From Deltaproteobacteria bacterium (lineage in GTDB: Bacteria > Myxococcota_A > UBA9160 > PR03): DNA of 64,000 bases. The number at the start of each line of letters is the position of its first letter. Position 1 is the first letter of the stretch. Where the stretch lies: assembly GCA_035063765.1 (NCBI GenBank), contig JAPSFT010000005.1:62001-126000 (forward strand). Direction: 5' to 3'. Under the pieces are notes generated by a model. The model had not been told where the DNA came from. It made no database searches and saw only the letters and a list, made by a program, of their open reading frames with translations. The translations under genes and the position numbers were made by a program. Below, piece by piece: positions 17,504 to 59,820 of the stretch.

Positions 17504-19633
17504 TCAGCTCGCGCGGTGCCCGGACTTCTTCCGGCCGTCGCCGGGCCGGCGCAGGATCCGGCCGACGATCCCCTGCTTCGGCTTGCGCATCGCGAGCAGG
17601 CGCAGCTCGCGCAGTGCCTCGGTCGAGTCGGGGCGGCGCTCGACCGCTTTCGTGAACATCTTCTCGGCCATCTCGAGGCGCCCCGCCGCCTGGCACAGCC
17701 GCCCGAGGAAGAGGTAGGGCTTGTCGCGCTCGGGGGCGAGCTTTGCGCCCCGCCTCACCAGCTCGAAGGCCTTGCGGAAGACCTGCTCGTCGTGGCCGTG
17801 GGTCAGGTAGTAGGACCAGCCGTAGAAGGCCAGGTACTCGCCCTCGTCCGGGTAGAGCTCGCAGGCGCGCTCGAAGTGCGCGAGCGCACCGGCCCAGTCG
17901 TAGGCGCGCAGGCGCGCCTCGCCGCGCTGGAACTCCTGCTCGGCCGCGAGCGCGCGCTGCGCCTCCTCCTGCGCCTTGGCGTTTCGGGCGTCGCGGATCG
18001 GGTCCGCACGGTAGGCGGCGAGATCGCTCGGGTCCGAGAGCGCCTGGTAGGCGCGCGTGATCTCCCGGAAGGCCTCCTCGGCGAGGTCGCGGACGACCTC
18101 GCTGGCGGCGGCGAAGCGATCGGGGTGGGCGCGCTTGGCGAGTTCCGTGTAGGCGGTGCGGATCTCGAGCGCCGTGGCATCGGGACGCAGCCCCAGCTTC
18201 TCGAAGGGGCTCGGCGATCGCAGCCGTACCAGGAGGGCGGCGAGCGCGGCGCGCTGCTCGTGGTCGGCGGCGTAGTGGGCGTGCTCGGCGGGCTCGCCGG
18301 CGGCGGCGGTCCTCGCGGTGGCTGCCGTGGCCGTTGCTCGCGGGGTCGGCCTCGGGGCAGGCGCCTGCGCGGGCGCGGGATCGGCGGCGGGGCTCGCGGC
18401 CGCCGCGCGGGCGCCTTGCTGCGCAGCCGGCGGCGCGGCGCCTGCGCCGGCCCTGGGGGGCTGTCCGTGCAGGCGCACCCGAGCGGCGGGCCCGCGGCTG
18501 CGGACCGACGCACCGTCGCGCAGCTCGAGGAGGGCGGTCTCGAGCAGCGCGTACGCGCTCCGGCGCACCTCGATCGGCCGCACCAGCAGCGAGCGCAGGG
18601 CGATCCCGCGCTCGCCCTCGACCAGCAGCTTCACGTCGGCGTCGTCGAGCTCGATCTCCTGGAACGAATAGAAGGGGTTCGAGCTCGCGAACGCGAAGTG
18701 ATCGGCGTGCGAGCGCAGCACGGCGTCGATCCGCTCGATCGGGAAGCGCGTTGCGACCCCCACCCGGATCACGTCGGCAGGGCTGCGCCGCACGGCGAGC
18801 GTGCTGGCGCGCTCGAGGCGTGCGCCCAGCGTCAGCTCGTAACGGCCGCGGCGCCAGGCGAAGATCTCGAAGAGCTTCTCGTCGGCGTGCTGCTGGAGCG
18901 CGTCGGCCAGCTCCTCCTCGGTGAGCGCCTGCATCGCGCGCAGCACCTCGCCCTGGAGGCCCTCGCCGCGGTGCATGCGGCGGATCGACTCCTGGAAGAC
19001 CGTGCGGTCGATCCGGCCGCTGCGCAGCAGCCACTCCCCGAGCCGCTCGCCCGGCAGGTTGGAGCGCACCGACGCGGCGCGGCCGTCGACCAGCTCGATG
19101 TCCTTGCGCCGCGGGCCGTCCTCGAAGCGCAGGACCCCCGATGCCCGCAGTCCGTGCACCTCGTGGAGCAGCGCCGGGAAGGGCAGCGCCTCGAGCGCGC
19201 CCCGCAGCGGGGCGGTGCGTACGGCGCGGCCGCGCGGTGCTGCCGCGGGTTCGGCGTTCGCGCGCGGCAGCAGCTTGCCGATCCGGCCCGTCAGGTTGTC
19301 GAGCGCCACGGGCTTCATCAGGATCGCGCTCGCACCGAGCTTGCGTGCGCGCTCGACCTGCGGCGCGCTCGGCGCCGCGGCGGTGAGGAAGATCGCCGGC
19401 ATGCCCGCGCACGCGTCCTGCCGCGCGCGGATCGCGCCGAGCACGGCGAGCCCGTCGCGACCCGGCAGGCCCAGGTCGATCACGACGAGCTGCGGCCGCG
19501 ACTCGGCGACCACGCGCAGGGCCGCCGCCCCGTCGTGGGCAGCGTGCACCCGGATCCCATCTGCCCCCAGCGCACGCGCCAGGACCTGGCAGAGGTTCCG
19601 GTCGGGATCGGCGCACAGGATGGTGGGCGACAT
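17504..19633 (-). CDS. Response regulator with DUF4388, J-domain and TPR-like modules
   Basis: The 709-residue protein (ATG 19633; GTG 19651 is possible) starts with a receiver domain: acid residues in CADPDRN, Asp53 in VVIDLGLPG and Lys in ILMKPV. A DUF4388 region follows (about 145-310; GVLRFEDG, GEWLLRSGRI), a module common in deltaproteobacterial signalling proteins. After a Pro/Ala-rich linker comes a J-domain with its HPD motif near residue 503, then TPR-like helices to the end. The J-domain should recruit DnaK, so phosphorylation may control chaperone action on a partner bound by the TPR or DUF4388 parts. That link is inference. Confidence 0.88.
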   Translation of the reverse strand: MSPTILCADPDRNLCQVLARALGADGIRVHAAHDGAAALRVVAESRPQLVVIDLGLPGRDGLAVLGAIRARQDACAGMPAIFLTAAAPSAPQVERARKLGASAILMKPVALDNLTGRIGKLLPRANAEPAAAPRGRAVRTAPLRGALEALPFPALLHEVHGLRASGVLRFEDGPRRKDIELVDGRAASVRSNLPGERLGEWLLRSGRIDRTVFQESIRRMHRGEGLQGEVLRAMQALTEEELADALQQHADEKLFEIFAWRRGRYELTLGARLERASTLAVRRSPADVIRVGVATRFPIERIDAVLRSHADHFAFASSNPFYSFQEIELDDADVKLLVEGERGIALRSLLVRPIEVRRSAYALLETALLELRDGASVRSRGPAARVRLHGQPPRAGAGAAPPAAQQGARAAAASPAADPAPAQAPAPRPTPRATATAATARTAAAGEPAEHAHYAADHEQRAALAALLVRLRSPSPFEKLGLRPDATALEIRTAYTELAKRAHPDRFAAASEVVRDLAEEAFREITRAYQALSDPSDLAAYRADPIRDARNAKAQEEAQRALAAEQEFQRGEARLRAYDWAGALAHFERACELYPDEGEYLAFYGWSYYLTHGHDEQVFRKAFELVRRGAKLAPERDKPYLFLGRLCQAAGRLEMAEKMFTKAVERRPDSTEALRELRLLAMRKPKQGIVGRILRRPGDGRKKSGHRAS

Positions 19634-19808
19634 CACGGCGGTCCGGGGCACCTGATCGCACGGTCGGGGCCGCAGCTTGAGGGCTTCTGGGGGGTTGCGC
19701 CCTCACTGCCGCTGGCCTGCCGGCGGACGGTGCGGGGCTGCGCTGCGAGCGGGCGTGACAGGCGCAGGCGGAGCATGGGAAGATCCCGGCAGTGCAGGAG
19801 GTCGAGTC

Positions 19809-20729: not shown

Positions 20730-22505
20730 CTACCGCCCCTCGCGCATCCACCAGAACGGCTTCGCCTCGAGCAGGCGGCTGATCCGCTCCGGCTCCACGC
20801 CCTCGCTGAACAGGTAGCCCTGCATCCGGCTGCAGCCGTAGGAGGCCAGGAGCTGCATCTGCTCGATGTTCTCGACCCCCTCGCCGACGGTTGCGAGATT
20901 GAGCGCGTGCGCCATCTGCACGATCGTCGAGGTGATCGTGGCATCGGCGGGATCGGTGGCGAGCGCGCGTACGAAGGACTGGTCGATCTTGAGCGTGTCG
21001 ACCGGAAGCTGCTTCAGGTAGGCGAGGGCCGAGTAGCCGGTGCCGAAGTCGTCGATCGCCATGCGCACGCCCAGGCCCTTCAGCATCGCGAACTGCGCGA
21101 GCGTCCGTTCCCCGTCGTGGAGCAGGCTGCGCTCGGTCAGCTCGAGCTCGAGGCAATCCGAGCGCAAGCCGGTGTCGAGCAGGGCCTGGCGCACGGTTGC
21201 CACGAACTCGGCGGGCTGGAACTGCTGGGGCGAGACGTTGACCGCGATGCGGAAGCCCGGGTAGCCGAGGGCCTGCCAGCGGGCGGCCTGGGCGCAGGCC
21301 TCGCGCAGCACCCACTCGCCGATCGGCACGATCAGCTGGGTGTTCTCGGCGATCGAGAGGAATTCGCCCGGCAGCACGAGGCCGAGCTCCGGGTGGCGCC
21401 AGCGCAGCAGCGCCTCGGCGCCGACCACGCGCCCGCGCCCGACGTCCACCACCGGCTGGTAGTGCAGGACCAGCTCGCCGCCCTCGAGCGCCTCGCGCAG
21501 GCGGCTCTCGCGCGAGATACGCTCGGCGCCCTCGGAGCTGCGCGTGCCCTCCTGCCAGCACGACACCCGGTCCCGGCCCTCCGCCTTGGCCTGGTACATC
21601 GCGGAGTCGGCGCGCTTCAGCAGCTCCTCGGCGCTGCCGGCGTCGCGCGGAAACGTGGCGACCCCGATGCTCGCCGACGTCTCGTACTGCTGGCCGCTCT
21701 TGACCGCCAGCGGCTCGCGCAGGAGCGCGCGCACCTTCTCGGCGATCCGCAGGGCGTCCTCCTCCTCGCCGAGGTTCGTGACCAGGATCGCGAACTCGTC
21801 GCCGCCCAGGCGCGCACCGGTGTCGCTCTTGCGCAAGCAGCTCCCGATGCGCTGCGCCGAAAGGCGTAGCAGCGCATCACCGGCCAGGTGGCCGAGCGTG
21901 TCGTTGATGCGCTTGAAGTCGTCGAGGTCCACGAACAGCACCGCCAGCCGCTGGCGGTTGCGCCGGGCCGCGGCCACCGCCTGCTCGAGCCGGTCCTGGA
22001 ACAGCGCGCGGTTCGCGAAGCCGGTGAGCTGATCGTAGGTAGCGAGCTGGCGGGCGCGTTCGCGGGCGATGTTGAGCTCGACGAACATGCGCTGGTTGCG
22101 CATCGCGTGGTGCAGGCTCCAGACGAGCAGGCCCGGCGTGACGGCAGACTTCACCATGTAGCCGCGCGCGCCTACCTCGACGGCGCGCAGCGCCAGCGCC
22201 TCGTCGTCGGAGTCCACCGCCACCACCACCGGCACCAGCGGCGCCCGCACGCGTGCCTGGCTGACCGCCGCCATCTCGCGCGCGTCGCCGGGGCCGACGT
22301 CCATCAGGAGGACGTCGACCTCGTTGCGCTCGAGCACCTCGAGGGCCTGCGACAGCGTGTGGGCGTGCGCGAAGCGGAAGGGCGGGTCGGCCGCGCTCGA
22401 CTCGAGCAGCACCCGGATCAGCTCGGCGTCCGCGTCCCGCCCGCTGACCAGCAGGATCCGGTGGGCCGACGGCTCGCCGGCGCGCGCCTCTTCGACAGCA
22501 CCCAT
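20730..22505 (-). CDS. Receiver-GGDEF-EAL protein for cyclic-di-GMP turnover
   Basis: The 591-residue protein starts at ATG 22505. The N-terminal receiver-like domain has LLMDVGPG as acceptor region and ARGYMVKSAV near its end. The diguanylate-cyclase domain has an intact RLGGDEFA active site, preceded by RKSD exactly five residues upstream, the RxxD product-inhibition site. The phosphodiesterase domain keeps EALLRW, NVSPQQF, LTERS and DDFGTGYSAL with the catalytic loop, so both enzyme activities look functional. Net output would depend on the receiver. The PilZ protein about 2 kb away is a possible c-di-GMP target. Promoter DNA upstream is not well defined. Confidence 0.95.
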   Translation of the reverse strand: MGAVEEARAGEPSAHRILLVSGRDADAELIRVLLESSAADPPFRFAHAHTLSQALEVLERNEVDVLLMDVGPGDAREMAAVSQARVRAPLVPVVVAVDSDDEALALRAVEVGARGYMVKSAVTPGLLVWSLHHAMRNQRMFVELNIARERARQLATYDQLTGFANRALFQDRLEQAVAAARRNRQRLAVLFVDLDDFKRINDTLGHLAGDALLRLSAQRIGSCLRKSDTGARLGGDEFAILVTNLGEEEDALRIAEKVRALLREPLAVKSGQQYETSASIGVATFPRDAGSAEELLKRADSAMYQAKAEGRDRVSCWQEGTRSSEGAERISRESRLREALEGGELVLHYQPVVDVGRGRVVGAEALLRWRHPELGLVLPGEFLSIAENTQLIVPIGEWVLREACAQAARWQALGYPGFRIAVNVSPQQFQPAEFVATVRQALLDTGLRSDCLELELTERSLLHDGERTLAQFAMLKGLGVRMAIDDFGTGYSALAYLKQLPVDTLKIDQSFVRALATDPADATITSTIVQMAHALNLATVGEGVENIEQMQLLASYGCSRMQGYLFSEGVEPERISRLLEAKPFWWMREGR

Positions 22506-22796
22506 GGTTCGGGGGGACTCCTCGGTCGCTGGCTGCCGGCACCGTGCGCGCAGGCCCGGCTTCCTATCGGCTCCGGGGGCGGTGCGCCTGAACCGGATCC
22601 CCGGGCGGATCCGCTCGGAAGAGGGGTGTGTCCCCCCCGCCAGGCCGGACGGCTGCCGGGCCTCCCTCGGCGGGCGGATCCGTCGCGGGTGGAGTTCGAC
22701 TACGATCCTGTCTCCGGCGACCCGCATGCGTCGTTCGATCCCGGTCTTCGCGGTCCGGGTCTCCGGCACGGCACTGCGAGAGGGGCGCAGGTCGAG
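22506..22796 (+). promoter_or_regulatory. Intergenic region with candidate -10 (TACGAT) for the Ddn-type gene
   Basis: This 291-bp divergent gap has no gene. TACGAT at 22701-22706 lies about 90 bp before ATG 22797 and is the best plus-strand -10. On the minus strand the CTATCGG patch near 22564-22570 may serve the GGDEF-EAL gene. No repeat or dyad stands out. Confidence 0.3.
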
Positions 22797-46770: not shown

Positions 46771-49700
46771 ATGGTCGTCGTGGCAGATCGGACCCGGAAT
46801 ACACGCGGAGGGGTTGCGCCCTGGCGCCGCTGGCTCGTGCCCTGCGCGGTGCTCGTGGCGACGCTTGCGCTCGCCTGCCGGGAGCAGGGCCGCGTCCTCT
46901 TCCAGCAGGCGAGCGTAGACGTCGAGAGCTTCGAGCTGGTCTCGGAGCGGGTGATCGCTCCGACCGTCACCGAGTCCACCTACCGTGCAAGGTGTAGAGC
47001 CAGGGCGGGGTCCTACGACGACGCGATCGTCTTCGTGAGCACGGAGGCGCTCGGCGTGGAGCTCGTCGATGCGGTGGCGCGCTGTGGCCCGCTCGGCGCT
47101 GGAGACACGCGGGACAGCGTCGAGACGATCGTGCTGGAGCGCGATCCCACGCGGCCCTTCGATCCGAACGTGCTCGACTGGATCGCGGTCGCCTACGGCC
47201 CCCACACGCGTGTGGCCGCGGAGCCAGCGCCCGGGGGAGCGCAGCGGCTCCGCTACGAGGTCGAGGTCACCGACTCGACCGGCCAGCAGGACATCGCCGT
47301 GGGCGTCACGAGCGTGAGCCCGTCGATCACCGTCGTGGACGGGCTCGTCACGGCCTCCACGCAGCGTTCCTCCACCAGCGTGCGCAACACCGAGACCTTC
47401 GAGGTCCTCGTGGAAGCCGGCGCGTCCTTCGATCCCGCAGGCCTTGCATGGACGCTGTCGCGCGGCATGCGCAGCGCCTTCGCGCTCGGCGTGACGCGCA
47501 CCCTCGACGGTGCGGGCCAGCCCCTCGGCGCCGTGCAGATCGAGGAGGAGGGGCCCGCGGGGCCCGCGCTCGGGACGTCCGAGAGCGAGACGGGCCTTGC
47601 GACGCTCGCGCTCGCGGCGGGCACCTTCCACTGGAAGTTCTCGCACGACGGGCATCTGCCGGTCTGGCGCGAGGCCACGCTCGCGGCTGGCCAGGTGCTC
47701 TCCGTCCCGAGCCCGTGGCTGCCCGCGCGCAGCAGCGCGCCGCCGGCCGCGCTCAGCGTGCTGAACGGCGGAGAGGTCGCTGGTGACGGGGTGCTCGTAC
47801 GCTTCGCGCCGGGCGCCTTTGCGGCCCCGGCGACCGGCACGCTGACCCCCGTCGGTGGCCAGGCGCTCCCGGGGCTGCTGCCCGCCGGCTGGAGCCCGCT
47901 CGCGGCGTTCTGGCTCGAGCTCTCGGCCGAGCCGCAGGCGCCGGGACAGGCGGAGCTCGTGCTCGGCGAGCGGCTCGTACCGGGCGAACGCGCCTTCCTG
48001 GTGCGTTTCGACCCGCCGACGCGCCGCTGGATCGAGACCGGCTCGCCGGTCACGGCGAGCGACACGCTCGCGACGGTGGCGCTCGCGGCGCCGGGCGCCT
48101 ACGCGATCGTGGTGGCGGACGCCGGTCCGACGGCGCCGCCGATACCCGCCGCTGGTGCGGTGCTCGAGCCCACGGCGACGCCCTTCCCGCTGCCGGACGG
48201 TCTCACCGCGACGGGAACCGTGACGCCGCCCGTCGCGGCCGCGAGCGAGGAGCCCTCGCTCGTGACGGCCCGGAGCGAGGTCGTGGTGGCCCACACGGGC
48301 CCGCTCCCGAGCGGGCTCGTGCTGCGCGCCAGCGTGGACGAGCAGTACCTCCTCCGCGACGGCACGGCGCGCACCACCCCGAGCTACGAGACCTTCTTCG
48401 TCGCCTACCAGCGGCCGGGCGACGGGGATCCGCTGACCCTGCACGCGCGCTTCCCGCTGCGCCCGCAGCTCACCCTCGGCCCGGACGCGCTCGACGAGGC
48501 GCACGTCGCGCTCGAGGTCCTGCCGGTCACCGCCTTCCAGGGGGGCCTGTTCAGCCCGAGCGGTGGGCGGGTCTACGCGCCGGGCGTGCTGATCTCGGCC
48601 GGCAGCGACGCCGTCGATCGCGCGCGGGCCGTCGAGCTGCGCGCACTCGACCCCGCGCGCTTCGCCGGGGAGCTGCCGCCCGGCGCGGCGCTCGTCGCGT
48701 TCGAGCTCGGGATCGAGCTGCGCGACGGCGCGCGCGTGGAGGCCGCGTTCGACCAGCAGGCGCCGAACGCCCATTTCGTGCTGGCGCGCCTCGTGCAGTC
48801 CGGGGCGCGCTCGGGCCTCGAGCCCCGTGTCCGCTATGCGAGCGACGGGTTCGGCGTGCTGCGCAGCGTCGAGCCGGCCAGTGGCTCGAAGCTGCCAGGC
48901 ATCACCTCCGCGGGAACCTACGTGCTCGTGCGTGTCGACGGCCCCCGCGCGCTCGTCGAGGGCGTCGCGCGTGATACCCGGGGCCAGCCGGCCGAGGGGC
49001 TCGCCGTCACCGTCGCGGGTGAGCCGTGGCTGACCTTCTCCGGGGCCGGCGGCCGCTGGCAGCTCGTCGCGCCGGTGGGGCAGGCGGAGGTCACCGTCAC
49101 CGACCTGCGCAACGGCGACCGCGGCGCGCAGAGCGTGCTGCTCGCCGACGCCACGAGCGTGGGCAACGCCGATCTCGGTACCCAGCCTGCGGGGCCCCGC
49201 GTGGTGGAAACCGACCCCGCCGACGGCGCGACCGGCGTGCGCGCCTCGACGCCGATTCGCGTCGCCTTCAGCGAGCGCGTGGCGCCGCTCGCGCCTGGCG
49301 ACCTCGTGCTCACGGACGACGGCGGTAGCCCTGTTGCGGCTACGCTCTCGGTCAACCTCGCGCGCACCGAGGTCACGCTGCTGCCGGTCGATCCGCTCCC
49401 GGCGGGCGCGCAGTTCACGGTGACGCTCGCGGACACCATCGCCGATCCGGGCGGCCTTCCGCTCGAGGGTCCGCGCGTGTTCCAGTTCACGACGCGCCAA
49501 TCCGCCCCGCGCGGCGCCGGTGCACAGCTCGTCTCGTGGGAACCCGGCGCGCAGACCAGCGAGTGCAACGACGTGCCGGGCTTCGACCCGGCCGAGACCG
49601 ACATCTCGTGTGTGGTCGGCACCCAGGGCGCAGCGGATCCCGATGTCGCGGTGATCGTCGTGAACGACACCCAGGGCACCACTGCGACCGTGCGCTCGCA

Positions 49701-52700
49701 GCTCGACGGGAGCTTCGAGACCTTCATTGCCGCCGACGTCGATGACTTCCTCTCGGCGGCCTTCGTGAACGCCAACGGGACGCGCATCACGCTCCCGTTG
49801 TCGCGCCAGAACTTCGACGACGGCTCGGTCGCGCTGTTCCCGAGCGGCGGCATTCTCGAAGCCGAGAGCGACGGCGGCCCGGTGCAAGTGATCGTCGAGC
49901 CCGATGCGGTCCCGACCAAGACCAAGTTCAAGCTGGACGTCTCGGACAGCCTCGCGGTGATCCAGCAGCTGCTCGCCGAGGCGCCGCCCGAGAACGGCGC
50001 CACGCTTCTCGACGCCGCCCGCGTCGAGATCGACGGCGAGCTGCGCGAGGCAGCCGACATCGCCTTCCCGCTGGACCCCGCCGACCTCGCGCTGCCGCCG
50101 GGTGAGACGCCCGAAGAGCAGAGCTACGTGATCGCCGAGCCGATCGAGGTCGACGGTGTGACCGTGTACCGCGTCGTCGACGAGGCGCGCTTCGAGGACG
50201 GCCAGGTGCGCACGGCCTCGCCGCCCTTCGAGGGGCTGCTGCCCTCCAGCGGCCTGCTCGTCGCGATGATGTTCCCGCCGATCGCGACCGCGACCGTCAC
50301 CGTGAGCGGTCGCGTCGGCGCGGTGTCGGAGGCGCTCGGCCGGCCGCCGACGAGCGCGGAGATCCTCGGCGGCGCCGCAGGCCGGCTTCCGATCGCGCCC
50401 GTCGCGGGCGCGGTCGTGAGCGCAGTCCCGGCTGGATCGGAGCTAAGCGGAGACCGCTTGCGCCCGGGCGGCTTCGTCGCGCTCACCAACCGCGCGGGCT
50501 TCTACGCGATCAAGGTGGACGTTCAGGGCACGGCCGACGCGGTCGGCATGCGCGCCACGTCGCTGCGCTTCCCGGGACGCATCGCGCGCGGCTCGTTCCC
50601 GGTGTTCGAGGCGCAGAGCGTCGGCAACTTCGGCGTCGTCACGTCCGACTTCGCCTTCCTCCTGCCCGCCGGCTCGGAGGGCGGCGCCGACGGCTTCGCG
50701 CCGATCATCAATCCGCTCCCGCCGAGCTCTGTGCTGCCCGTCGGCCAGGACGTTTCGGTTCCCTTCGACCTGCGCGACGACCGCACCGCGCCGAGCATGG
50801 AGAGCGTCGTCTTCCGGCCCGAGCTCTCCGCATCGCTGGTTCCCGGCGAGCCGCTCGGGGCAGTGAGCGTCACCGAGGGCGCCACCACGCCGCTCAATGC
50901 GACGAGCGCCCGCACCGACGTGAACTTCCGCGTCGAGCGCGACGCGCTGGTCGCGGTCGAGGTACGGGCCAAGGACGCGGCCGGCAACGAGCGCACCGCG
51001 CTGCATCGCTTCCGCTTCGGCGCGCCGCCGCCGCCGCCGCCGCCGGGCGGGCTCCAGCCGAGCGATCCCGACGACGCGACACCACCCCGCGTATCGTCGA
51101 TTGTACCGACCGACGGAGCGATGGTCGCGGATCTCGAGGCGATCGTCGTGCGCTTCAGCGAGGCCGTCGCCGAGGACATCGAGACGAACGGCGCGGTGAC
51201 GATTCGTTCGTCGGCGCTCGGATCGATCGTCGCGGGCGTCGAGCTCTCGGCCGATCAGCTCACTGCGCGCATCGACCCGGGCGTGCTGGTCGCCGACGAC
51301 GAGTACACGGTGACGATCGGGACGGCGGTCCGGGATCTCGCCGGAAACCCGATGGCGAGCTCCACCACGGTGACCTTCCGCACGCCGCCGATCGCGGGCG
51401 GTCCGCTGCCGGACGTGGCGGTTCCCGTCGCGACGGTGATGCAGGGCAACGTCGCCTATACGCTCGACCGTGGCACGGGCCAGAACGACGAGGGCATCTG
51501 GATCCACGGCGTCGCGGACCCCGAGCAGCCCGTCGTGCTCGGCCGCTACCTCGGGCTGCCCGACTACCCGCGCGCGCTCGCGATCGTACCGAAGTGGTCG
51601 TACCAGCAGACGCTCACCGCGCCGGCCCGCGAGGACCGCACGCTGCTCGTCGCGGCCGGCGGCCTCGTGGGCGACGGCAACGCCGGCCAGTGGATCCACG
51701 TCGTCGACGTGACCGATCCGGCGAGTCCCGAGCGCGTGGCGAGCCTGCTGGCGATCCCGGACTTCTCCTCGGCGATCGTGCTGCTGCGCGCGAGCGCGCC
51801 GCGCCTGTTCACGCTCGTGAACACGGGCGAGGGCGGCGTGGTCCAGATCATCGACCTCCAGAGCTTCATCGTCGGCTGCAACATGAGCTCGCAGGAGTTC
51901 ACCGACAATCCGCCCCGCGCGGGCTCCGACGCCAACGGCGACGGCGACTTCGTGGATGGCGGTGACACGCTTCCCATTCCCGAACGGAGCTCGCTCTTCG
52001 GGCAGGAAGCCGCCATCGCGGCGCCCAACCGCCACGCCATCGGCGACTTCGACGTGGCGCTCGGCGGCAGCACGCTCGTGTCGGTGATGAACGCGTCCAC
52101 CGATGGCTTCGGCAGCAGCTTCCCGGCGCGCCTCCAGATCCACTTCGCCGACGGCCTCTTCGTCGGCGACGGCGGCAGCGCCGACGGCGCCGTCGAGTTC
52201 CCGACCGAGCCGCGTCCGTTCCGGGTGCGCATCGATCCCGACCTGCCCGTGCCCGACGGGAGCGGCGGCCTGCGCGTCGTTCGCGCCGCGCTCGTCGCGC
52301 GCGGCAAGCGGATCGAGGTCTGGGACATCACCGATCCGCTGGCGCCCGCGCGGATCGCCGACATCGGGTTCGGTCCGGCGCTCGGACCGGACGCGCGCAT
52401 CTTCGCGATCGAGCCCGCCGGTCCCGACCGGTGGGTCGTGGCGACCGACGAGAAGATCTTCTTCCTCGACCGCTCGCGCCTGACCGAGGCCGCTGCGAGC
52501 GCGGACGACGCGAGTCCCGCCGTCGAAGACGCGATCGATCTCGGCACTAGCGGGCGAAGCTTTGCGGTGTCAGGCAGCACGCTCGTCGCTCCCGGAGCGA
52601 AGCAGATCGTGCAGCTCGCGCCGCGGGTGTCGATCGTCCAGGTGCCGGGCAGCGCGGTGACGACGGCCGACGCGCTGCGCGCGCGGTCCGAGACCGCGAT

Positions 52701-55700
52701 CCGCGAGTTCCTCGGCGGGCGCGTCGAAGAGGCATTCCTGCTCCCGGCTCCGCTCGAGGCCACGGGCGGCTTCGCGGCGGCGCTCACCGACCCGCCCGTT
52801 CCCCGTTTGCATCACTACGCGCTGCTCGAAGGCTCGGGTGCCAGCGGCAGCGAGGTGAAGCTCGCGATCGAGTCGCTCGAGCGGGACGGCACGCTGCTGT
52901 CGGCGAAGGGCGAGAGCTTCGGCGCGATCTTCCTGTCCGACAACGCCGCCTCGATCCGGCTGGAGGCGCCGATTCATCCGGCCGTGACCTCGCTGCGCGC
53001 GAAGCGGCTCTCCGACGACCCGCTGAGCCCGCTCTACGACCTGTTCCTGAGCGATCCCTTCGTGATCGTCCGCGAGCCGCTGACGGCGGCGCAGCGCCAG
53101 AGCCTCGAGGGCGGGAGCCTTCCGCGCGCGGTGGTGCACGCCGGCGAGCAGATGCGCGTCAGCATCGACTTCAGCCCGAGCGTCGACGGCGTCGACGCGC
53201 TCGAGGGCAAGATCGAAAGCTCGTCCTACGAGCCCGGGCTGTCGCGCACCTACACATCCCTGTGCAGTGAGTACGTCGACTCGCCCAACCCGACCTTCGA
53301 GTCGGGCGCGCCGCGTCTCGCCGGCATGACGCTGCCGACCGGGGAGTACCGGCACGAGGCGACCGACCTCGCAGTGAAGGGGCGCTCGGCGGACCTCGTG
53401 ATGAGCCGCGTCTACGCGAGCCGCTCGGCGGCGGCCGGCGTGCTCGGGCCCGGCTTCGACTTCAATTGGAACGCGCGCATCTGCGAGCTACCGATCGGCG
53501 CGCTGCCTTCCGGATACCGGCTCCCGCTGACCTTCTACGGCGACGCCGGCTTCGACCGCATCGCGCAGCCCGGAGACGCCTTGCTCTCGGACGGCGCGGG
53601 CAACGTCCATCTCTATCGCCGCATCGACGAGGCGCACGGGAATCTGGCGAAGAAGCCGCTCTTCGAGACCGACCCGGCGATCGCGGCGTTCGGCTGGTCG
53701 TCGAAGATCGCCTCCTTCTACGAGTCGCCGCGCGACCGCTTCGACGCGCTCTACCGCATGAGCGATGGAAGCTTCGTGCACGTGGCGAGCAACGGCGCGC
53801 GCACCGTCTACGACGCCGACGGCCGCCTCACCGAAATCGTCCCCGCCTTCGTCGACAGCCGCATGCGTGTGTTCCGGCGCGCCGACGGCCGCCTCGACCG
53901 CGTGGAGGGCGATCGCGGCATCGCGCTCGAGTTCGGCTGGCGGCTGCCGACCACGAGCCCGAGCTTCGACACTACGATCGATCTCCCGTACTCGAGCGCC
54001 GCGGATCTCGGGCGGCTCGGCCGCGTGAAGGCCGGCGCGCGCAACGTCGAGTACCGCTACGACGACCACGGCCGCCTCGAGAGCGTCGTCCAGACCCACG
54101 GCCGGGACATGCGCTACGGCTGGAAGCCGGGCGATCCGCTGCGGCTCGCGAGCCACGGCCATGGCAGCGCGGGCGACGAGGAGCCGCGCGCCGCCATCAC
54201 GTACGACGGGGCGCTGGTCGACAAGGTCGACGTCCGCGGGACCGGGATCGACGTCGGCGGCGCGTATCTGACCGCCGAGGCGATGTTCGCGGCGAACGGC
54301 GGCACGGCCACCGCCGTGGTCGGCTCCGCGCCCGAACAGCAGTACGCCTTCGACCGCTTCGGCGGCGCGACGGACGTGGGCGGCGAGACCAGCACGGTCG
54401 ACGACGGCGGCCGCGTCAGGCAACTCGGCAGCGGTGGCGAGACGGTGACGCTCGAGTACGACGACGTTAACACCGCATGGCGCTTGCGCGGCAACCTGCT
54501 GCGCTCGACCGTCGGGAGCTTCGTGACCGAGCTGGTCTACGACGGCACGGCGTGGAATCGCCTCGTGCGGGTGACGACTCCCGAAGGGGTCACGACGACG
54601 TGGAGCTACGCGCCCGCGAGCATGCTCGACGTCACCGGCAGCAGCGGCCTGGAGATCGTCGCGACGACCGGGCCGGTCACGAACCGCTCGCACTTCAACC
54701 GCTGGGGTCAGTTCCAGGCGTCGAGCCTCGAGGAGAGCGGCGCCACGCCGCTGACGCGCGGCGTCCGGCTGGGCGGCTCCAACGATCTGCCCGAGACCGC
54801 GTCCTGGGGCGGCAGCTATCCGAGCGGAGCCGGCGGCCTCGTCGAGGTCAACATCGCCAGCGATTCCAACGGCGTGCCGTCGAGCTTCGACTCGGGCGGG
54901 AGGAATTTCGCGGTCCAGCGCGACGCGGACGGCGTGGCGACCGGCTTCGGCGACGCCGACCTCACGGTCAGCACGACCACGGACGACGGCCGGCCGGCCG
55001 GCATGACGGTGAGCACGGCGAGCGGAGCCGTCTCGCAGTCGCTCTCGTACGGGGCCGATCCCTTCGCCGTCGAGAGCATGCGGGACGAAGCGACGGGCCT
55101 CGCCGACGTGAGCACGAGCTTCGGCTACGACGGCTACGGCCGCGTGACTTCGCTTTCCTCGAACGGCGAGACGACGAGCTTCGGCTACACCGGCGCCGCG
55201 CTCACCAGCCGCAGCGGCCCCGGCATCGAGCAGTCGATCACGTTCCAGAACGGCGCTCCGACCGCGATCGAGGACCAGGGAATCGGAGCGGCGCTCGGCT
55301 ACGACGGCGAAGGGCGGCTCACTTCGCTCACCACCGATCTCGGGGCCTCGACCTTCCGTTACGGCAACGGCCGCCAGGTGGTCGGGAAGACCGTCACGGA
55401 CGCCAGCTTCGGAACGCTCGTCGACGAGACCTACGGCTACGACGCAGCCGGCCGACTCGAAAGCGTGACGGGCGCGCTCGCGCAGGCGTTCTCCTACTTC
55501 CCGGACGGAATGGTTCGGCGCGTCCAGGTGAATGGGCAGACCGTGAAGCAGCTGACCCGCGACGTCGCCGGCCGCGTGACGCGCATCGAGCTGCCGGCGC
55601 TCGGCATCACGACCGAGCGGACGGGCTTCGACGGCACGACGGGACGCACGCTCGGCGAGACGGTCACCTTCCCGAGCGGGCGCTCGCTCACGAAGACGTT

Positions 55701-58700
55701 CGACTACGCGAACGGCGCCCTGGCCTCGATCGCGCTGCCGAGCGGCGCGACGACGAGCTTCGGCCGCGACGACTTCGGCAACGGCACCGCGACCACGGAT
55801 CCGGACGGGGTCACGACGCGTGCCACCTACGCGGCCGACGGCAGCGTGCTGTCGGTCACCTTCGGCGACGGCACCGGCGCCGACTACCGCTACGACGGCA
55901 ATCGCCACCTCGTCGGGATCGGCGCGATGGACTTCACGCTCGACGCCGAGAAGCTGGTGTCGGTCGTCACTTGGCCCGACGGCACCGATACGAAGTTCCG
56001 GCGCACGCAGAACCCGCTGCTGGTGGACGAGATCGAGTACGGCGGCGCGACGCAGTTCCTGACGCGCGTCGCCGGCCAGACGCGCATCCTCGATGTGCCC
56101 AACACCGGCGACCGCATCGAGATGCAGCGCGACGCGCTCGGCGCCGTGCGCAAGGTGACGCGCGGGCAGCACGTGATCGACGTGGGCCTCGACGGCCGCG
56201 GCCGCGCCGTTTCGGAGTCCACGGCCCTCGGCACGTGGGCGGTCACGATCGACGATCTCGGCCGCACGGTCGACGAGGACTATCCATCGGGCCTCGCGCT
56301 CGACTACGCCGTCGACGGCTTCGGCCAGCCGACCCAGATCGGTGGCGTCGGGATCTCGTCGCTTGCGTTCGCTGCGCCGGGCGTCGTCGAGTCCCTCTCC
56401 TACGCCGGCGGCGTCACGTTCACGCGCACGCTCGACGCCGACCTCCGGACCACGACGATGCGCTGGGAGGCGAGCGGCGCTGCCGATCCGCCACCGGCGG
56501 CGGGCTTCGAGTACGAGCTCACGCAGGGCGGGCGCGTGCTCTCGGAGCACCGGCTGCACGACGGCCGCGTCGACGTCTACCGCCGCAACGCGCCGCCCGC
56601 CGGCATGCGCATCGTGGACTTCGAGCTCGGCGCCCTGTGCCGCGCGAGCTCCTGCGGCGACGCGACGCTCGACGCCGGCGAAGCCTGCGACGACGGCAAT
56701 CTCTTCGCCGGCGACGGCTGCCGCGCGGATTGCACCGCCGAGAGCTGCGGCGATGGCCGCCTCGACTTTGCCGAGCTGTGCGACGACGGCAACTCGCTCG
56801 GGGGCGACGGCTGCCGCGGCGACTGCACGGTCGAGCGCTGCGGCGACGGCGCGTTCGACGCCGGCGAAGCCTGCGACGACGGCAACGCGGGCGTCGGCGA
56901 CGGTTGCCGCGCCGATTGCACCGCCGAGAGCTGCGGCGACGGCGTGCTCGATCCGGTCGAGAGCTGCGACGACGGCAATGGGCTCGGCGGTGACGGCTGC
57001 GATGCGAGCTGCGGCGTGGAGATCTGCGGCAACGGGCGACTCGACACCGGCGAGGACTGCGACGACGCGAACGGCGCCTACGGCGACGGCTGCCGCCCGG
57101 ACTGTACGGCAGAGGCTTGCGGCGACGGGACGCTCGATCCCGGTGAGGGCTGCGACGACGGGAACCCGACTCCGGGCGACGGCTGCAGCCCGAGCTGTAT
57201 CTCGGACCTGTGCGGCAACGCCGCGACCGATCCCGGCGAGAGCTGCGACGACGGCAACAGCAGCGGCGGCGACGGCTGCGACCGGCGTTGCCAGGTCGAG
57301 GCCTGCGGCAACGGCTTCCTCGACACGGGCGAGGATTGCGACGACGGCAACGTCGTGAACGGCGACGGTTGCCGCAGCGACTGCAGCGTCGAGCGCTGCG
57401 GCGACCTCGTGGTGGATGCCGGCGAGTCCTGCGACGACGGCAACCCGGCCGGCGGCGACGGCTGCCGCGCGGACTGCACGGTCGAGCGCTGCGGCGACGG
57501 GCTCCTCGACGCGGGCGAGTCCTGCGACGACGGCAACGCGGCGGACGGCGACGGCTGCCGCGCCGACTGCAGCGTCGAGCGCTGCGGCGACGCCATCCCA
57601 GACGCCGGCGAAGACTGCGACGACGGCAATCTCACGACCGGCGACGGCTGCCGCGCCGACTGCAGCGCCGAGACGTGCGGCGACGGCGCCCTCGACTCGA
57701 ACGAGGTCTGCGACGACGGCAACACGAGCGGCGGCGACGCCTGCCTGCCGAACTGCACCGAGGCCGCTTGCACGAACGCCCAGCAAACCGCGCAGGCGCC
57801 AGCGGTCACGCTCGCGGGCTTCGACTTCGATGCCGAGAGCGAGCTGCTCTCGCCGCAATCGAGCAGCGGCGCCCCTGACAGCCGTGCGGTGTTCGCGGAC
57901 ATGACCGTGGTGGCGGGCCGCCTCCAGCAGGCGAGCGGCGTCACGGTGCTCTACGACGACGGCGGCTCGGTCTCGCAGGCACCGCTCTGGGTGCACCTGC
58001 CCGGCGATCCGACGCTCACGCAGGTGACCGCGAGCTTCGAGCACGACGGCTTCGGGATGCTGCGGCGGGTCACGCGCACTGACGGCTGCGAAGTGTCGTA
58101 CGTCCGCGACGGCATGGGCCGCATCGTCGAGCGGCGTGCGGCGGGACCCGCCGATCGATGCCGCGCCGGACGCCAGCACTTCGCTTGGAAGGACGGGCGC
58201 CTCATCGAGGAGTACGAGGAGGTCGGGCCGCCGCTGAGCCCTACGCGCGAGCTCACGCGGCGCTTCGTGTGGGTCGGCAGCCAGCTCGTGCTGGCGCAGG
58301 CCGCGGCGGCGCCCGGCGATCCGCTCGAGGACTTCATTCCGCTCGCCGGCATCAACGGCAGCGTGGGCGGCTACCTGGGTCGCGACGGCGCGCTGCTCGA
58401 GTCGATCAGCTACGGCCCGTACGGAACGCCGCGCGTGCAGCGCGTGGTGGACGGCACCCTGCTGCGCGGCGAGTCCGAGCGCTCCGCGATCGCGCACCGC
58501 TTGCTCTTCCACGCCGCGTTCTTCGACGAAGCGACCGGCCTCTACCAGATGGGCGAGCGCACGCTGCACCCGCAGCTCGGCCGCTTCCTCGAGCGCGACG
58601 CCGCGCTCTATCGCGACAGCCGCGCCCTGCTCACGGCGATGAACGGCGATCCGGTCGGCAATGTCGACCGCAAGGGCAGCCGGGTCGAGTCGGTCGTCAC

Positions 58701-59820
58701 GCAGGCGCAGCAATACGGCGAGATGGTGGAGTGGAGGACGGCGAAAGAGGCCGGCAAGGGGATGGTCGAAGGCTGGCAGGAGCTGCGCGAGGGGCTCGGT
58801 GAGCGCGACGACGACTGGACCAACCCGATCGGCCTCGGCAAGACGTCGCTGGAGTTCGTCGGGAAAGGGCTGGCGCTGGCCGGATCGTTCGGAAGCGAGC
58901 AGGAGCGCAAGCAGTTCCAGGCGGAGTGGATCGACAAGACCGAGGGCCTCTCGAAGAGCGTCGAGGCGATCCACAGCGTCTTCGAGGTCGAGCACGAAGC
59001 GGGGACCTTGAAGAAGCTGCTCGCGGCACAGGAGCTGGCGTCGCAGGTCGGCGTGGTGAAGTGGACGGTCGCGAAGGACGGTCTCACCGCCTTCACGGAG
59101 AGCGACGCCGGAAGCAGGCGGTCCCGGGCCGTCGGGACATCCATCGACCCGCCTGCAAAGGCGATCGAGTTCGCGTGCGACGCCGACACGCCGGACTCGC
59201 AGCGCGTGAAGCTCACCGACGCCCGGCTCGCGGCCGCCGAGGCGGTGCTCGAGCTCGCGAAATGGGCCGCCGCGGACGCGATGGAGGCCGACAAGGACGC
59301 CCCCGACATCGACATCGATCAGATGGACAAGAGCGCGATGGCGATGAACGTCGATGGCCTGTTCGGGGTGAGCGAAGCGCTGATCACCGCCGCCAAGGCG
59401 GTGCACGAGGCGCAGCAGGTCAAGGCGCTCTCCGAGGCGGGCAAGATCGCCTTCTCGGCGGGAGAGTTCGGATCGCTCTCGAGCCGCGTCTTCCCGGGCT
59501 CGGCCGCCCTCGCGCTCACCTTCGACGCGTCGTTCAAGGGGATGCAGGCCGTGCTGCTGCTCGTCTACGACGAGCGCCAGGGCAACGAGTACCGCCGCGC
59601 GCGGCGCCAGTTCTCCGAGGACGGCGTGATGACCGTCGGCAGCGGTCTCCTCTCCGCCGCGCACGACCTGACGGGCGTGCAGCTCCTGCAGGACGCGGCG
59701 TGGGCGATCCAGCGCTTCCATGACTACGACCCGGCCGGCGGCCCCGGTCCGTTCGCCGGACGCGTGCGCCAGGACCAGCAGCGCATGTACCTGCTCGAGC
59801 GGGGGCTGGATGCGAACTAG
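46771..59820 (+). CDS. Giant RHS/YD-repeat surface protein interrupted by twelve DUF4215 Cys-rich repeats
   Basis: The protein has 4,349 residues. After an export signal ending in LALAC (imperfect lipobox) come beta-rich regions; SbsA-type Ig-like domains at about 811-910 and 1439-1540 (TDPADGATGV, VPTDGAMVADLEAI); and a propeller-like stretch to about 1950. At about 2200, RSADLVMSRVYASRS resembles the DUF6531-type entry to RHS proteins. YD repeats (YDDHGRLESV and many relatives) fill 2344-3290. Twelve exact-length 31-residue DUF4215 repeats occupy 3295-3666. More YD repeats follow, then the RHS core with FDEATGLYQMGERTLHPQLGRFLERD near 3925, and a 400-residue C-terminal region of unknown fold, where RHS toxins usually sit. 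It overlaps the next gene by 11 bp. Confidence 0.92.
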   Translation: MVVVADRTRNTRGGVAPWRRWLVPCAVLVATLALACREQGRVLFQQASVDVESFELVSERVIAPTVTESTYRARCRARAGSYDDAIVFVSTEALGVELVDAVARCGPLGAGDTRDSVETIVLERDPTRPFDPNVLDWIAVAYGPHTRVAAEPAPGGAQRLRYEVEVTDSTGQQDIAVGVTSVSPSITVVDGLVTASTQRSSTSVRNTETFEVLVEAGASFDPAGLAWTLSRGMRSAFALGVTRTLDGAGQPLGAVQIEEEGPAGPALGTSESETGLATLALAAGTFHWKFSHDGHLPVWREATLAAGQVLSVPSPWLPARSSAPPAALSVLNGGEVAGDGVLVRFAPGAFAAPATGTLTPVGGQALPGLLPAGWSPLAAFWLELSAEPQAPGQAELVLGERLVPGERAFLVRFDPPTRRWIETGSPVTASDTLATVALAAPGAYAIVVADAGPTAPPIPAAGAVLEPTATPFPLPDGLTATGTVTPPVAAASEEPSLVTARSEVVVAHTGPLPSGLVLRASVDEQYLLRDGTARTTPSYETFFVAYQRPGDGDPLTLHARFPLRPQLTLGPDALDEAHVALEVLPVTAFQGGLFSPSGGRVYAPGVLISAGSDAVDRARAVELRALDPARFAGELPPGAALVAFELGIELRDGARVEAAFDQQAPNAHFVLARLVQSGARSGLEPRVRYASDGFGVLRSVEPASGSKLPGITSAGTYVLVRVDGPRALVEGVARDTRGQPAEGLAVTVAGEPWLTFSGAGGRWQLVAPVGQAEVTVTDLRNGDRGAQSVLLADATSVGNADLGTQPAGPRVVETDPADGATGVRASTPIRVAFSERVAPLAPGDLVLTDDGGSPVAATLSVNLARTEVTLLPVDPLPAGAQFTVTLADTIADPGGLPLEGPRVFQFTTRQSAPRGAGAQLVSWEPGAQTSECNDVPGFDPAETDISCVVGTQGAADPDVAVIVVNDTQGTTATVRSQLDGSFETFIAADVDDFLSAAFVNANGTRITLPLSRQNFDDGSVALFPSGGILEAESDGGPVQVIVEPDAVPTKTKFKLDVSDSLAVIQQLLAEAPPENGATLLDAARVEIDGELREAADIAFPLDPADLALPPGETPEEQSYVIAEPIEVDGVTVYRVVDEARFEDGQVRTASPPFEGLLPSSGLLVAMMFPPIATATVTVSGRVGAVSEALGRPPTSAEILGGAAGRLPIAPVAGAVVSAVPAGSELSGDRLRPGGFVALTNRAGFYAIKVDVQGTADAVGMRATSLRFPGRIARGSFPVFEAQSVGNFGVVTSDFAFLLPAGSEGGADGFAPIINPLPPSSVLPVGQDVSVPFDLRDDRTAPSMESVVFRPELSASLVPGEPLGAVSVTEGATTPLNATSARTDVNFRVERDALVAVEVRAKDAAGNERTALHRFRFGAPPPPPPPGGLQPSDPDDATPPRVSSIVPTDGAMVADLEAIVVRFSEAVAEDIETNGAVTIRSSALGSIVAGVELSADQLTARIDPGVLVADDEYTVTIGTAVRDLAGNPMASSTTVTFRTPPIAGGPLPDVAVPVATVMQGNVAYTLDRGTGQNDEGIWIHGVADPEQPVVLGRYLGLPDYPRALAIVPKWSYQQTLTAPAREDRTLLVAAGGLVGDGNAGQWIHVVDVTDPASPERVASLLAIPDFSSAIVLLRASAPRLFTLVNTGEGGVVQIIDLQSFIVGCNMSSQEFTDNPPRAGSDANGDGDFVDGGDTLPIPERSSLFGQEAAIAAPNRHAIGDFDVALGGSTLVSVMNASTDGFGSSFPARLQIHFADGLFVGDGGSADGAVEFPTEPRPFRVRIDPDLPVPDGSGGLRVVRAALVARGKRIEVWDITDPLAPARIADIGFGPALGPDARIFAIEPAGPDRWVVATDEKIFFLDRSRLTEAAASADDASPAVEDAIDLGTSGRSFAVSGSTLVAPGAKQIVQLAPRVSIVQVPGSAVTTADALRARSETAIREFLGGRVEEAFLLPAPLEATGGFAAALTDPPVPRLHHYALLEGSGASGSEVKLAIESLERDGTLLSAKGESFGAIFLSDNAASIRLEAPIHPAVTSLRAKRLSDDPLSPLYDLFLSDPFVIVREPLTAAQRQSLEGGSLPRAVVHAGEQMRVSIDFSPSVDGVDALEGKIESSSYEPGLSRTYTSLCSEYVDSPNPTFESGAPRLAGMTLPTGEYRHEATDLAVKGRSADLVMSRVYASRSAAAGVLGPGFDFNWNARICELPIGALPSGYRLPLTFYGDAGFDRIAQPGDALLSDGAGNVHLYRRIDEAHGNLAKKPLFETDPAIAAFGWSSKIASFYESPRDRFDALYRMSDGSFVHVASNGARTVYDADGRLTEIVPAFVDSRMRVFRRADGRLDRVEGDRGIALEFGWRLPTTSPSFDTTIDLPYSSAADLGRLGRVKAGARNVEYRYDDHGRLESVVQTHGRDMRYGWKPGDPLRLASHGHGSAGDEEPRAAITYDGALVDKVDVRGTGIDVGGAYLTAEAMFAANGGTATAVVGSAPEQQYAFDRFGGATDVGGETSTVDDGGRVRQLGSGGETVTLEYDDVNTAWRLRGNLLRSTVGSFVTELVYDGTAWNRLVRVTTPEGVTTTWSYAPASMLDVTGSSGLEIVATTGPVTNRSHFNRWGQFQASSLEESGATPLTRGVRLGGSNDLPETASWGGSYPSGAGGLVEVNIASDSNGVPSSFDSGGRNFAVQRDADGVATGFGDADLTVSTTTDDGRPAGMTVSTASGAVSQSLSYGADPFAVESMRDEATGLADVSTSFGYDGYGRVTSLSSNGETTSFGYTGAALTSRSGPGIEQSITFQNGAPTAIEDQGIGAALGYDGEGRLTSLTTDLGASTFRYGNGRQVVGKTVTDASFGTLVDETYGYDAAGRLESVTGALAQAFSYFPDGMVRRVQVNGQTVKQLTRDVAGRVTRIELPALGITTERTGFDGTTGRTLGETVTFPSGRSLTKTFDYANGALASIALPSGATTSFGRDDFGNGTATTDPDGVTTRATYAADGSVLSVTFGDGTGADYRYDGNRHLVGIGAMDFTLDAEKLVSVVTWPDGTDTKFRRTQNPLLVDEIEYGGATQFLTRVAGQTRILDVPNTGDRIEMQRDALGAVRKVTRGQHVIDVGLDGRGRAVSESTALGTWAVTIDDLGRTVDEDYPSGLALDYAVDGFGQPTQIGGVGISSLAFAAPGVVESLSYAGGVTFTRTLDADLRTTTMRWEASGAADPPPAAGFEYELTQGGRVLSEHRLHDGRVDVYRRNAPPAGMRIVDFELGALCRASSCGDATLDAGEACDDGNLFAGDGCRADCTAESCGDGRLDFAELCDDGNSLGGDGCRGDCTVERCGDGAFDAGEACDDGNAGVGDGCRADCTAESCGDGVLDPVESCDDGNGLGGDGCDASCGVEICGNGRLDTGEDCDDANGAYGDGCRPDCTAEACGDGTLDPGEGCDDGNPTPGDGCSPSCISDLCGNAATDPGESCDDGNSSGGDGCDRRCQVEACGNGFLDTGEDCDDGNVVNGDGCRSDCSVERCGDLVVDAGESCDDGNPAGGDGCRADCTVERCGDGLLDAGESCDDGNAADGDGCRADCSVERCGDAIPDAGEDCDDGNLTTGDGCRADCSAETCGDGALDSNEVCDDGNTSGGDACLPNCTEAACTNAQQTAQAPAVTLAGFDFDAESELLSPQSSSGAPDSRAVFADMTVVAGRLQQASGVTVLYDDGGSVSQAPLWVHLPGDPTLTQVTASFEHDGFGMLRRVTRTDGCEVSYVRDGMGRIVERRAAGPADRCRAGRQHFAWKDGRLIEEYEEVGPPLSPTRELTRRFVWVGSQLVLAQAAAAPGDPLEDFIPLAGINGSVGGYLGRDGALLESISYGPYGTPRVQRVVDGTLLRGESERSAIAHRLLFHAAFFDEATGLYQMGERTLHPQLGRFLERDAALYRDSRALLTAMNGDPVGNVDRKGSRVESVVTQAQQYGEMVEWRTAKEAGKGMVEGWQELREGLGERDDDWTNPIGLGKTSLEFVGKGLALAGSFGSEQERKQFQAEWIDKTEGLSKSVEAIHSVFEVEHEAGTLKKLLAAQELASQVGVVKWTVAKDGLTAFTESDAGSRRSRAVGTSIDPPAKAIEFACDADTPDSQRVKLTDARLAAAEAVLELAKWAAADAMEADKDAPDIDIDQMDKSAMAMNVDGLFGVSEALITAAKAVHEAQQVKALSEAGKIAFSAGEFGSLSSRVFPGSAALALTFDASFKGMQAVLLLVYDERQGNEYRRARRQFSEDGVMTVGSGLLSAAHDLTGVQLLQDAAWAIQRFHDYDPAGGPGPFAGRVRQDQQRMYLLERGLDAN
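56653..57768 (+). repeat. Twelve tandem 93-bp DUF4215 (Myxococcus-type Cys-rich) repeats
   Basis: Each unit encodes 31 residues of the form CGDG-x-D-AGE-x-CDDGN-x(4)-DGC-x-x-x-C with four cysteines at positions 1, 12, 23 and 27. Exactly 12 units fit with no indel, then the pattern stops at CTNAQQ. The conserved DDGN...GDGC core resembles a calcium-binding loop. Forty-eight cysteines imply disulphides outside the cytoplasm. The array sits between YD-repeat blocks of the RHS gene. Confidence 0.93.

Follow-up and report, generated by a model that had tools for sequence, protein, structure and literature searches.

A single protein encoded in the window (the whole 64,000-nucleotide stretch of deltaproteobacterial DNA analysed here) joins a receiver, a DUF4388 domain, an HPD-bearing J-domain and TPR repeats in one chain, and, judged from sequence comparison, this architecture is real and conserved. 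Receivers switch by phosphorylation of an aspartate and HPD J-domains stimulate the ATPase of Hsp70s, and it is quite probable that the protein acts as a response regulator with a J-protein as its output, i.e., a signal-controlled co-chaperone, whatever its target may be. The more specific reading preferred here, that this signal-controlled J-protein targets the type IV pilus (T4P) motor and an Hsp70 branch tying pilus activity to polysaccharide secretion, is put forward tentatively and by analogy with systems of other bacteria. The protein is a new combination of known parts, not a new kind of system.

Domain architecture of the protein

The gene lies on the minus strand (17504..19633), as do all of its parts described below, and its open reading frame has 715 codons from a GTG at 19651 or 709 from the ATG at 19633. 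The ATG appears the likelier start because its methionine is invariant in a four-row alignment of the window protein with three orthologues found in a genome-contig scan (L009, L010 and L011, with 72, 60 and 43% identity to the window protein), of which L009 and L011 were aligned from that methionine; residue numbers here count from the GTG. The receiver (19280..19621; residues 11-124) matches PF00072 (Response_reg) at 3e-19, over the Pfam cut-off, and has D15, T90 and K113 in addition to the phospho-acceptor D59 (19475..19477); the second acidic position is Pro16 in the window protein and Asp in many orthologues. It stands N-terminal of DUF4388 (18806..19201; residues 151-282; PF14332 at 1e-12, 48.6 bits against a cut-off of 25), which we take to be the PATAN domain and which is also present in a control cyanobacterium. 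There follow a conserved post-PATAN region (18512..18802; residues 284-380; mean pairwise identity 0.34), with no Pfam match in the scan of the window protein, and an Ala/Pro-rich variable linker (18287..18511; residues 381-455; gap fraction 0.62, pLDDT mostly <50) that sits between the two halves of the protein.

Beyond the linker come the J-domain (18011..18205; residues 483-547; PF00226 at 2.2e-12, 47.3 bits against a cut-off of 27.8), with predicted helices and the HPD motif H509-P510-D511 (18119..18127), a TPR array (17627..17932; residues ~574 to 675/683) and a basic C-terminal tail (17546..17623; residues 677-702). The TPR array is indicated by TPR models matching at 6e-6 and weaker, with TPR_14 barely above its cut-off and TPR_1 and TPR_2 barely below theirs, as well as by the structure model and by fold matches. 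In an AlphaFold model of residues 456-715 built from four sequences (mean pLDDT 85.6), J-type helices flank the HPD loop and the TPR array is formed; the full-length model, also from four sequences, was rejected as too poor to use (mean pLDDT 62.5, pTM 0.29). Fold searches with the J-TPR model gave TPR arrays in nearly all of their best rows, several of them from the Hsp70/Hsp90 co-chaperones HOP, CHIP and SGT, and no J-domain chain was named among the best 50 rows of either list; such repeats match widely, and therefore nothing is drawn from these matches. The 12 Pfam families reported for the window protein at E <=10 include neither the DnaJ C-terminal nor the zinc-finger domain, while both occur in the dnaJ that adjoins dnaK in the same genome (L151), and we take the window protein to be a class C J-protein in the usual scheme. 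Elsewhere in the window, on the plus strand (46771-59820), lies a 4349-codon open reading frame with coding-like codon use.

Conservation, exceptions and paralogues

A profile search of 60 related genomes, in which 16-19 candidates per genome were scored in full, places the gene in at least 42 of them, many uncultured relatives included; among the matches listed, 25 genomes match along the full model and another 17 through split matches in frame. An alignment of 43 rows was assembled from the window protein, 39 other clear orthologues (with it, the 40 clear orthologues referred to below) and three doubtful carriers, namely a row without the receiver (G003), one unreadable in one frame (G006) and one (G050; L086) that resembles the paralogous subfamily L160-L162 described below; G029 and G011 carry the gene but were left out. 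G006 is a single-contig genome in which the halves of the orthologue (L085) match at distant places, and it is possibly rearranged or faultily assembled.

D59, K113 and the HPD motif are invariant in the four-row alignment. Across the larger one, D59 is found in 39 of 43 rows (38 of the 40 clear orthologues), HPD in 38 rows (37 of 40), an acidic residue at position 15 in 36, T/S90 in 38 and K113 in 38. The complete receiver set (D15, D59, T/S90, K113) is present in 34/43 rows and 33/40 clear orthologues, and together with HPD in 31/43 rows and 31/40 clear orthologues. A separate 27-row alignment was built from HPD-bearing rows only, and its invariant HPD therefore carries no evidential weight. 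Since the architecture is conserved in 39 further clear orthologues, chance is excluded. The earlier note had described a receiver, DUF4388, a complete J-domain and TPR-like helices in one chain, a description confirmed by Pfam matches over cut-off, by the J-TPR model and by these orthologues; it had also named loss of the HPD or of the acceptor Asp in orthologues as what would speak against signal-controlled chaperone recruitment, and such losses are confined to a minority of rows.

Mean pairwise identity, calculated from 41 rows (G003 and G006 left out), is 0.45 for the receiver, 0.51 for PATAN, 0.41 for the J core, 0.47 for the TPR array and 0.64 for the C-terminal 26 residues, which surpass the other regions compared and form a basic segment of the type LRELRLxxMRRxKxKGLxxRLLRR. 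Basic-hydrophobic ends such as GLFGRFFKK are also seen on the PATAN-J-TPR phylum proteins L098, L106 and L107. In a plasmid collection, none of the 349 matching records covers 80% of the query protein, and 20 places among the matches listed fall in its first 128 residues.

At the scale of the phylum, matches at 1e-40 or better occur in 21 of 77 sampled genomes, 10 of them among the 62 outside the order, and the architecture was confirmed in four of these 62. Among the eight outside-order proteins scanned with Pfam (L106 and G115 were left out), L096, L098, L099 and L100 match all three of the receiver, DUF4388 and J models. L102 and L104 match DUF4388 and J but show no receiver, and L107 matches the J and TPR models but not DUF4388; in L103, where receiver, DUF4388 and TPR models match, the J model does not. 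The acceptor position is Glu in L099 and L100, both of which retain HPD, and phosphorylation therefore may not always be needed. The genome of the window itself has eight DUF4388 proteins, the window protein included. One of them, L006, shares with it DUF4388, an HPD-bearing J-domain and TPRs and differs in having no receiver and in lying downstream of REC-HD and V4R genes (L144:10555-14236 on G000:C4, with REC-HD, then V4R with a weak STAS match, then L006 on one strand); L007 is a weak receiver-DUF4388-TPR protein without J, and L005 a PilZ-DUF4388 protein. A paralogous REC-PATAN-TPR subfamily (L160:7346-9304, L161:8000-9949 and L162:7406-9739), which has a Glu acceptor and a J region that is degenerate and HPD-less, is likely a double-pseudo version; neither of the two members scanned has a Pfam J match, and the subfamily retains the basic tail. 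The domain content marks the family as modular, its receiver and J being variably present around PATAN and TPR.

Among the clear orthologues, HPD is missing from G007, G010 and G049; G010 has lost the J-domain and retained the receiver, PATAN, TPR and tail, and the orthology of both G010 and G049 is backed by synteny too. The receiver set is incomplete in seven of the 40, including a three-genome clade (G043, G052, G055). A quick tree of 42 rows, in which long rows are placed unsurely, was calculated from the PATAN, post-PATAN, TPR and tail columns, with the J and receiver columns excluded and G006 dropped. All four HPD-less rows (G007, G010, G049, G050) belong to the five with the longest end branches (about 1.0-1.7 against a median of 0.25), the fifth being the receiver-less G003, and the rows with degenerate receivers (G016, G039, G040, G043, G052, G055) have end branches of 0.12-0.55; each trait, receiver set and HPD, changes at least four times on the tree. 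As the HPD-less rows have long branches despite the exclusion of the J and receiver columns, the J-domain seems integral: loss of its motif seems to accompany relaxed constraint elsewhere in the protein, and the domain seems to belong to the conserved function. Phospho-control, read from the same exceptions, would be common but dispensable. A strict link between loss of the acceptor Asp and loss of HPD, prompted by L160-L162 and G049, which lose both, was rejected, being contradicted by the Glu acceptor with HPD in L099 and L100 and by the degenerate receivers with HPD in G043, G052 and G055.

These exceptions have to be weighed against two other readings of the chain. The receiver may be a passive docking or dimer module on a constitutive PATAN-J-TPR co-chaperone, with phosphorylation irrelevant, as the receiver-less paralogues L006 (same genome), L102 and L104 (phylum) and the seven incomplete receiver sets might suggest; we regard this as quite unlikely, given that D15, D59, T/S90 and K113 stand together in 33 of the 40 clear orthologues and that L006 is second after a separate REC-HD gene, so that its input may come in trans. 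It would be far more surprising if the J-domain were vestigial or structural only and the protein a PATAN-TPR scaffold: HPD is present in 37 of the 40 clear orthologues and those without it evolve fast elsewhere too, even though G010 does without the J-domain while keeping its other parts, G007 and G049 and the L160-L162 subfamily do without HPD, and J is less conserved than the tail and TPR.

Genome neighbourhood and the pilus and Hsp70 genes

In most of the order, the gene has the housekeeping neighbours gatCAB-mtnA-ilvE. Of 39 fetched neighbourhoods, 32 have ilvE (branched-chain transaminase) downstream and 27 have gatB upstream; gatA occurs in 26 (its listed member in L082 stands downstream), gatC in 22, mtnA in 21 and a frame judged AsmA-like by eye in 25, all counted as same-strand cluster members. 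Measured in 27 loci, the distance from the stop to the start of ilvE has a median of 34 bases and is within 100 bases in 24 of them. In the window's family that order has been lost, and around the window gene none of these neighbours is present. Upstream of it, on the same strand, lies a REC-GGDEF-EAL gene (20730..22565, minus strand, 5' end approximate), separated from it by two small plus-strand genes. Relatives of this gene (70-73% identity) are found upstream on the same strand in G001, G002 and G004, directly so in G001, L009:544-2316 being one such upstream copy; the gene was not found in the other two examined loci of the window's family, one of which (G005) is a 5-kb contig. Genes for a HisKA-HATPase_c kinase and an NtrC-type regulator lie on the plus strand at ~12.6-15 kb of the window, ~4 kb from the gene and with a beta-lactamase-fold gene intervening, and this kinase is probably the partner of the adjoining NtrC-type regulator. 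In 7 of 22 loci (G016, G023, G027, G043, G049, G053, G058), a tandem pilT-like pair is situated ~1-10 kb downstream on the same strand; the seven come from two families only and are therefore not independent. Outside the order, G060 has the gene after a SurA/PpiC-type foldase gene and beside mreB, mreC and a transpeptidase gene. In G097 (L156:14277-15000), a small J-protein gene adjoins the end of a DnaK gene, ~9 kb from the REC-PATAN-TPR gene.

PilT-family matches over cut-off are found in 57 of the 60 relatives, including all carriers of the gene (at least 42 of 60). The three PilT-less genomes (G015, G026, G054; 2.2-2.8 Mb) are also without the gene, their matches to its profile being weak (E 1e-19 to 1e-22) and, where shown, restricted to the receiver part. 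With PilT in 57/60 relatives, this co-occurrence barely discriminates (Fisher ~0.02, by hand, and confounded by genome reduction). The window's own genome has pilB, pilT and pilC-like genes in a row; PilB matches both TIGR02538 and an MshE-type c-di-GMP domain over cut-off, PilT is over its model cut-off, and the best model for the PilC-like gene is below cut-off. The same genome has seven J-domains. Its PF00012 matches number ten and include four DnaK-type Hsp70s, two covering the whole model and two its first 518-520 of 599 positions, and one DnaK is followed by a classical dnaJ. Other J-DnaK gene pairs also exist in it: at L145:5635-8432 (G000:C35) a J-TPR gene is followed after 5 bases by the predicted start of a DnaK of 521 aa, whose match to the Hsp70 model covers no more than positions 1-518 and which is close in size to the Myxococcus xanthus Hsp70 StkA (540 aa), and at L146:4703-7527 (G000:C33) a 759-aa DnaK-type protein is followed by a 176-aa J-protein.

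Candidate target and relation to known systems

The cyanobacterial PATAN-CheY proteins (PixG, PixE, TaxP2; PATAN was defined in PatA) likewise hold PATAN and a receiver in one chain, with PATAN N-terminal and the receiver C-terminal, whereas the window protein has the receiver first and a J-domain and TPRs added (PMC10519157; PMC12288463; PMC7380572). In Synechocystis, PixG and other PATAN regulators have been reported to interact with PilB1 or PilC (PMC12288463; PMC10519157). DnaK1, the TPR-containing DnaJ3 and GrpE interact with PilB and Hfq and affect motility and polysaccharide (PMC9239167; PMC12288463); binding of Synechocystis DnaK1 to PilB was negative in a two-hybrid test (PMC9239167). 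DnaJ3 (sll1384) resembles the window protein in joining a J-domain and TPRs in one chain, and T4P motor genes share the genome with the window protein as they do with the DnaK1/DnaJ3 system; the likeness is drawn at the level of domain content, and a receiver or PATAN goes unmentioned for DnaJ3 in the available portions of these papers (PMC9239167; PMC12288463). Two PATAN proteins have also been noted to co-occur with SgmX (PMC11580455).

In M. xanthus, StkA is a negative regulator of EPS, acting downstream of T4P and upstream of Dif (PMC4319316), SglK is involved in fibrils and S-motility (PMC8265645), and four PilZ proteins bear a DnaK or DnaJ domain (PMC8316039). Signalling and pilus functions are thus tied to Hsp70 components, as proposed here, but StkA and SglK are Hsp70s and the others PilZ fusions, and none is a receiver-PATAN-J protein in the available descriptions (PMC4319316; PMC8265645; PMC8316039). 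The words DnaJ and J-domain are absent from the main text of the SglK paper (PMC8265645), the accessible parts of the two Myxococcus papers name no J-protein partner for these Hsp70s (PMC8265645; PMC4319316), and those of the pilus and polysaccharide studies name no client (PMC9239167; PMC8265645; PMC4319316). In E. coli, DjlA and DnaK activate the Rcs phosphorelay, which also ties a J-protein to two-component signalling; DjlA, however, is a receiver-less, membrane-anchored protein whose action is on the signalling pathway, whereas the J-domain of the window protein is the proposed output (PMC11709261). Within the portion of the literature matches covered, no receiver-J or PATAN-J protein is described, in agreement with the earlier note's view that J-domains are rarely response-regulator outputs.

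The T4P motor is the most plausible target because PATAN-CheY proteins and the DnaK1/TPR-DnaJ3 pair have both been reported at the cyanobacterial motor (PMC12288463; PMC10519157; PMC9239167). A signal-regulated J-protein with the same biochemistry could also serve proteostasis, division, the envelope/rod-shape machinery or a next-door client, which we consider possible but doubtful: the gatCAB, mtnA and ilvE neighbours in most of the order, with ilvE so close behind the gene, and the foldase, mreB and mreC setting in G060 favour such a target, as does PatA, the PATAN-receiver namesake, which binds the divisome protein ZipN, so that PATAN proteins are not tied to pili (PMC7380572), while the action of Synechocystis PATAN regulators at the pilus motor, the pilT linkage in 7 of 22 loci and the c-di-GMP turnover gene that lies upstream within the window's family speak against it. 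The polar or motility connection suggested in the earlier note is upheld only in part and indirectly, with the cyanobacterial PATAN and TPR-DnaJ reports, PilT in all carriers, the pilT-linked loci and the REC-GGDEF-EAL gene on its side, and the housekeeping neighbourhood and ZipN binding against it.

In the preferred reading of a signal-controlled J-protein directed to the T4P motor, a histidine kinase would phosphorylate D59, which would alter the contacts of the receiver with PATAN or the dimer state, while anchoring at the target would fall to PATAN, TPR and the basic tail. There, the HPD motif of the J-domain would trigger ATP hydrolysis by one of the four DnaK-type Hsp70s, and a client would be remodelled; the target would be the pilus motor and the Hsp70 branch linking pilus activity to polysaccharide secretion. 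A more detailed version, in which the phosphorylated receiver-PATAN part docks on PilB/PilC and J fires a dedicated DnaK, so that the pilus state is relayed to polysaccharide export through Hsp70s like StkA, SglK or DnaK1, is unlikely to hold as a whole; c-di-GMP would in that case perhaps control polysaccharide export as well.

The natural fusion of two module types, each reported on its own at the cyanobacterial pilus motor, suggests a physical connection, and it bears on how Hsp70s come to govern polysaccharide and pilus-dependent motility in Myxococcus as in cyanobacteria. With an acceptor Asp and an HPD that can both be mutated in a single chain, the hypothesis is cheap to break, and, if it is true, Hsp70 recruitment would join the outputs of response regulators.
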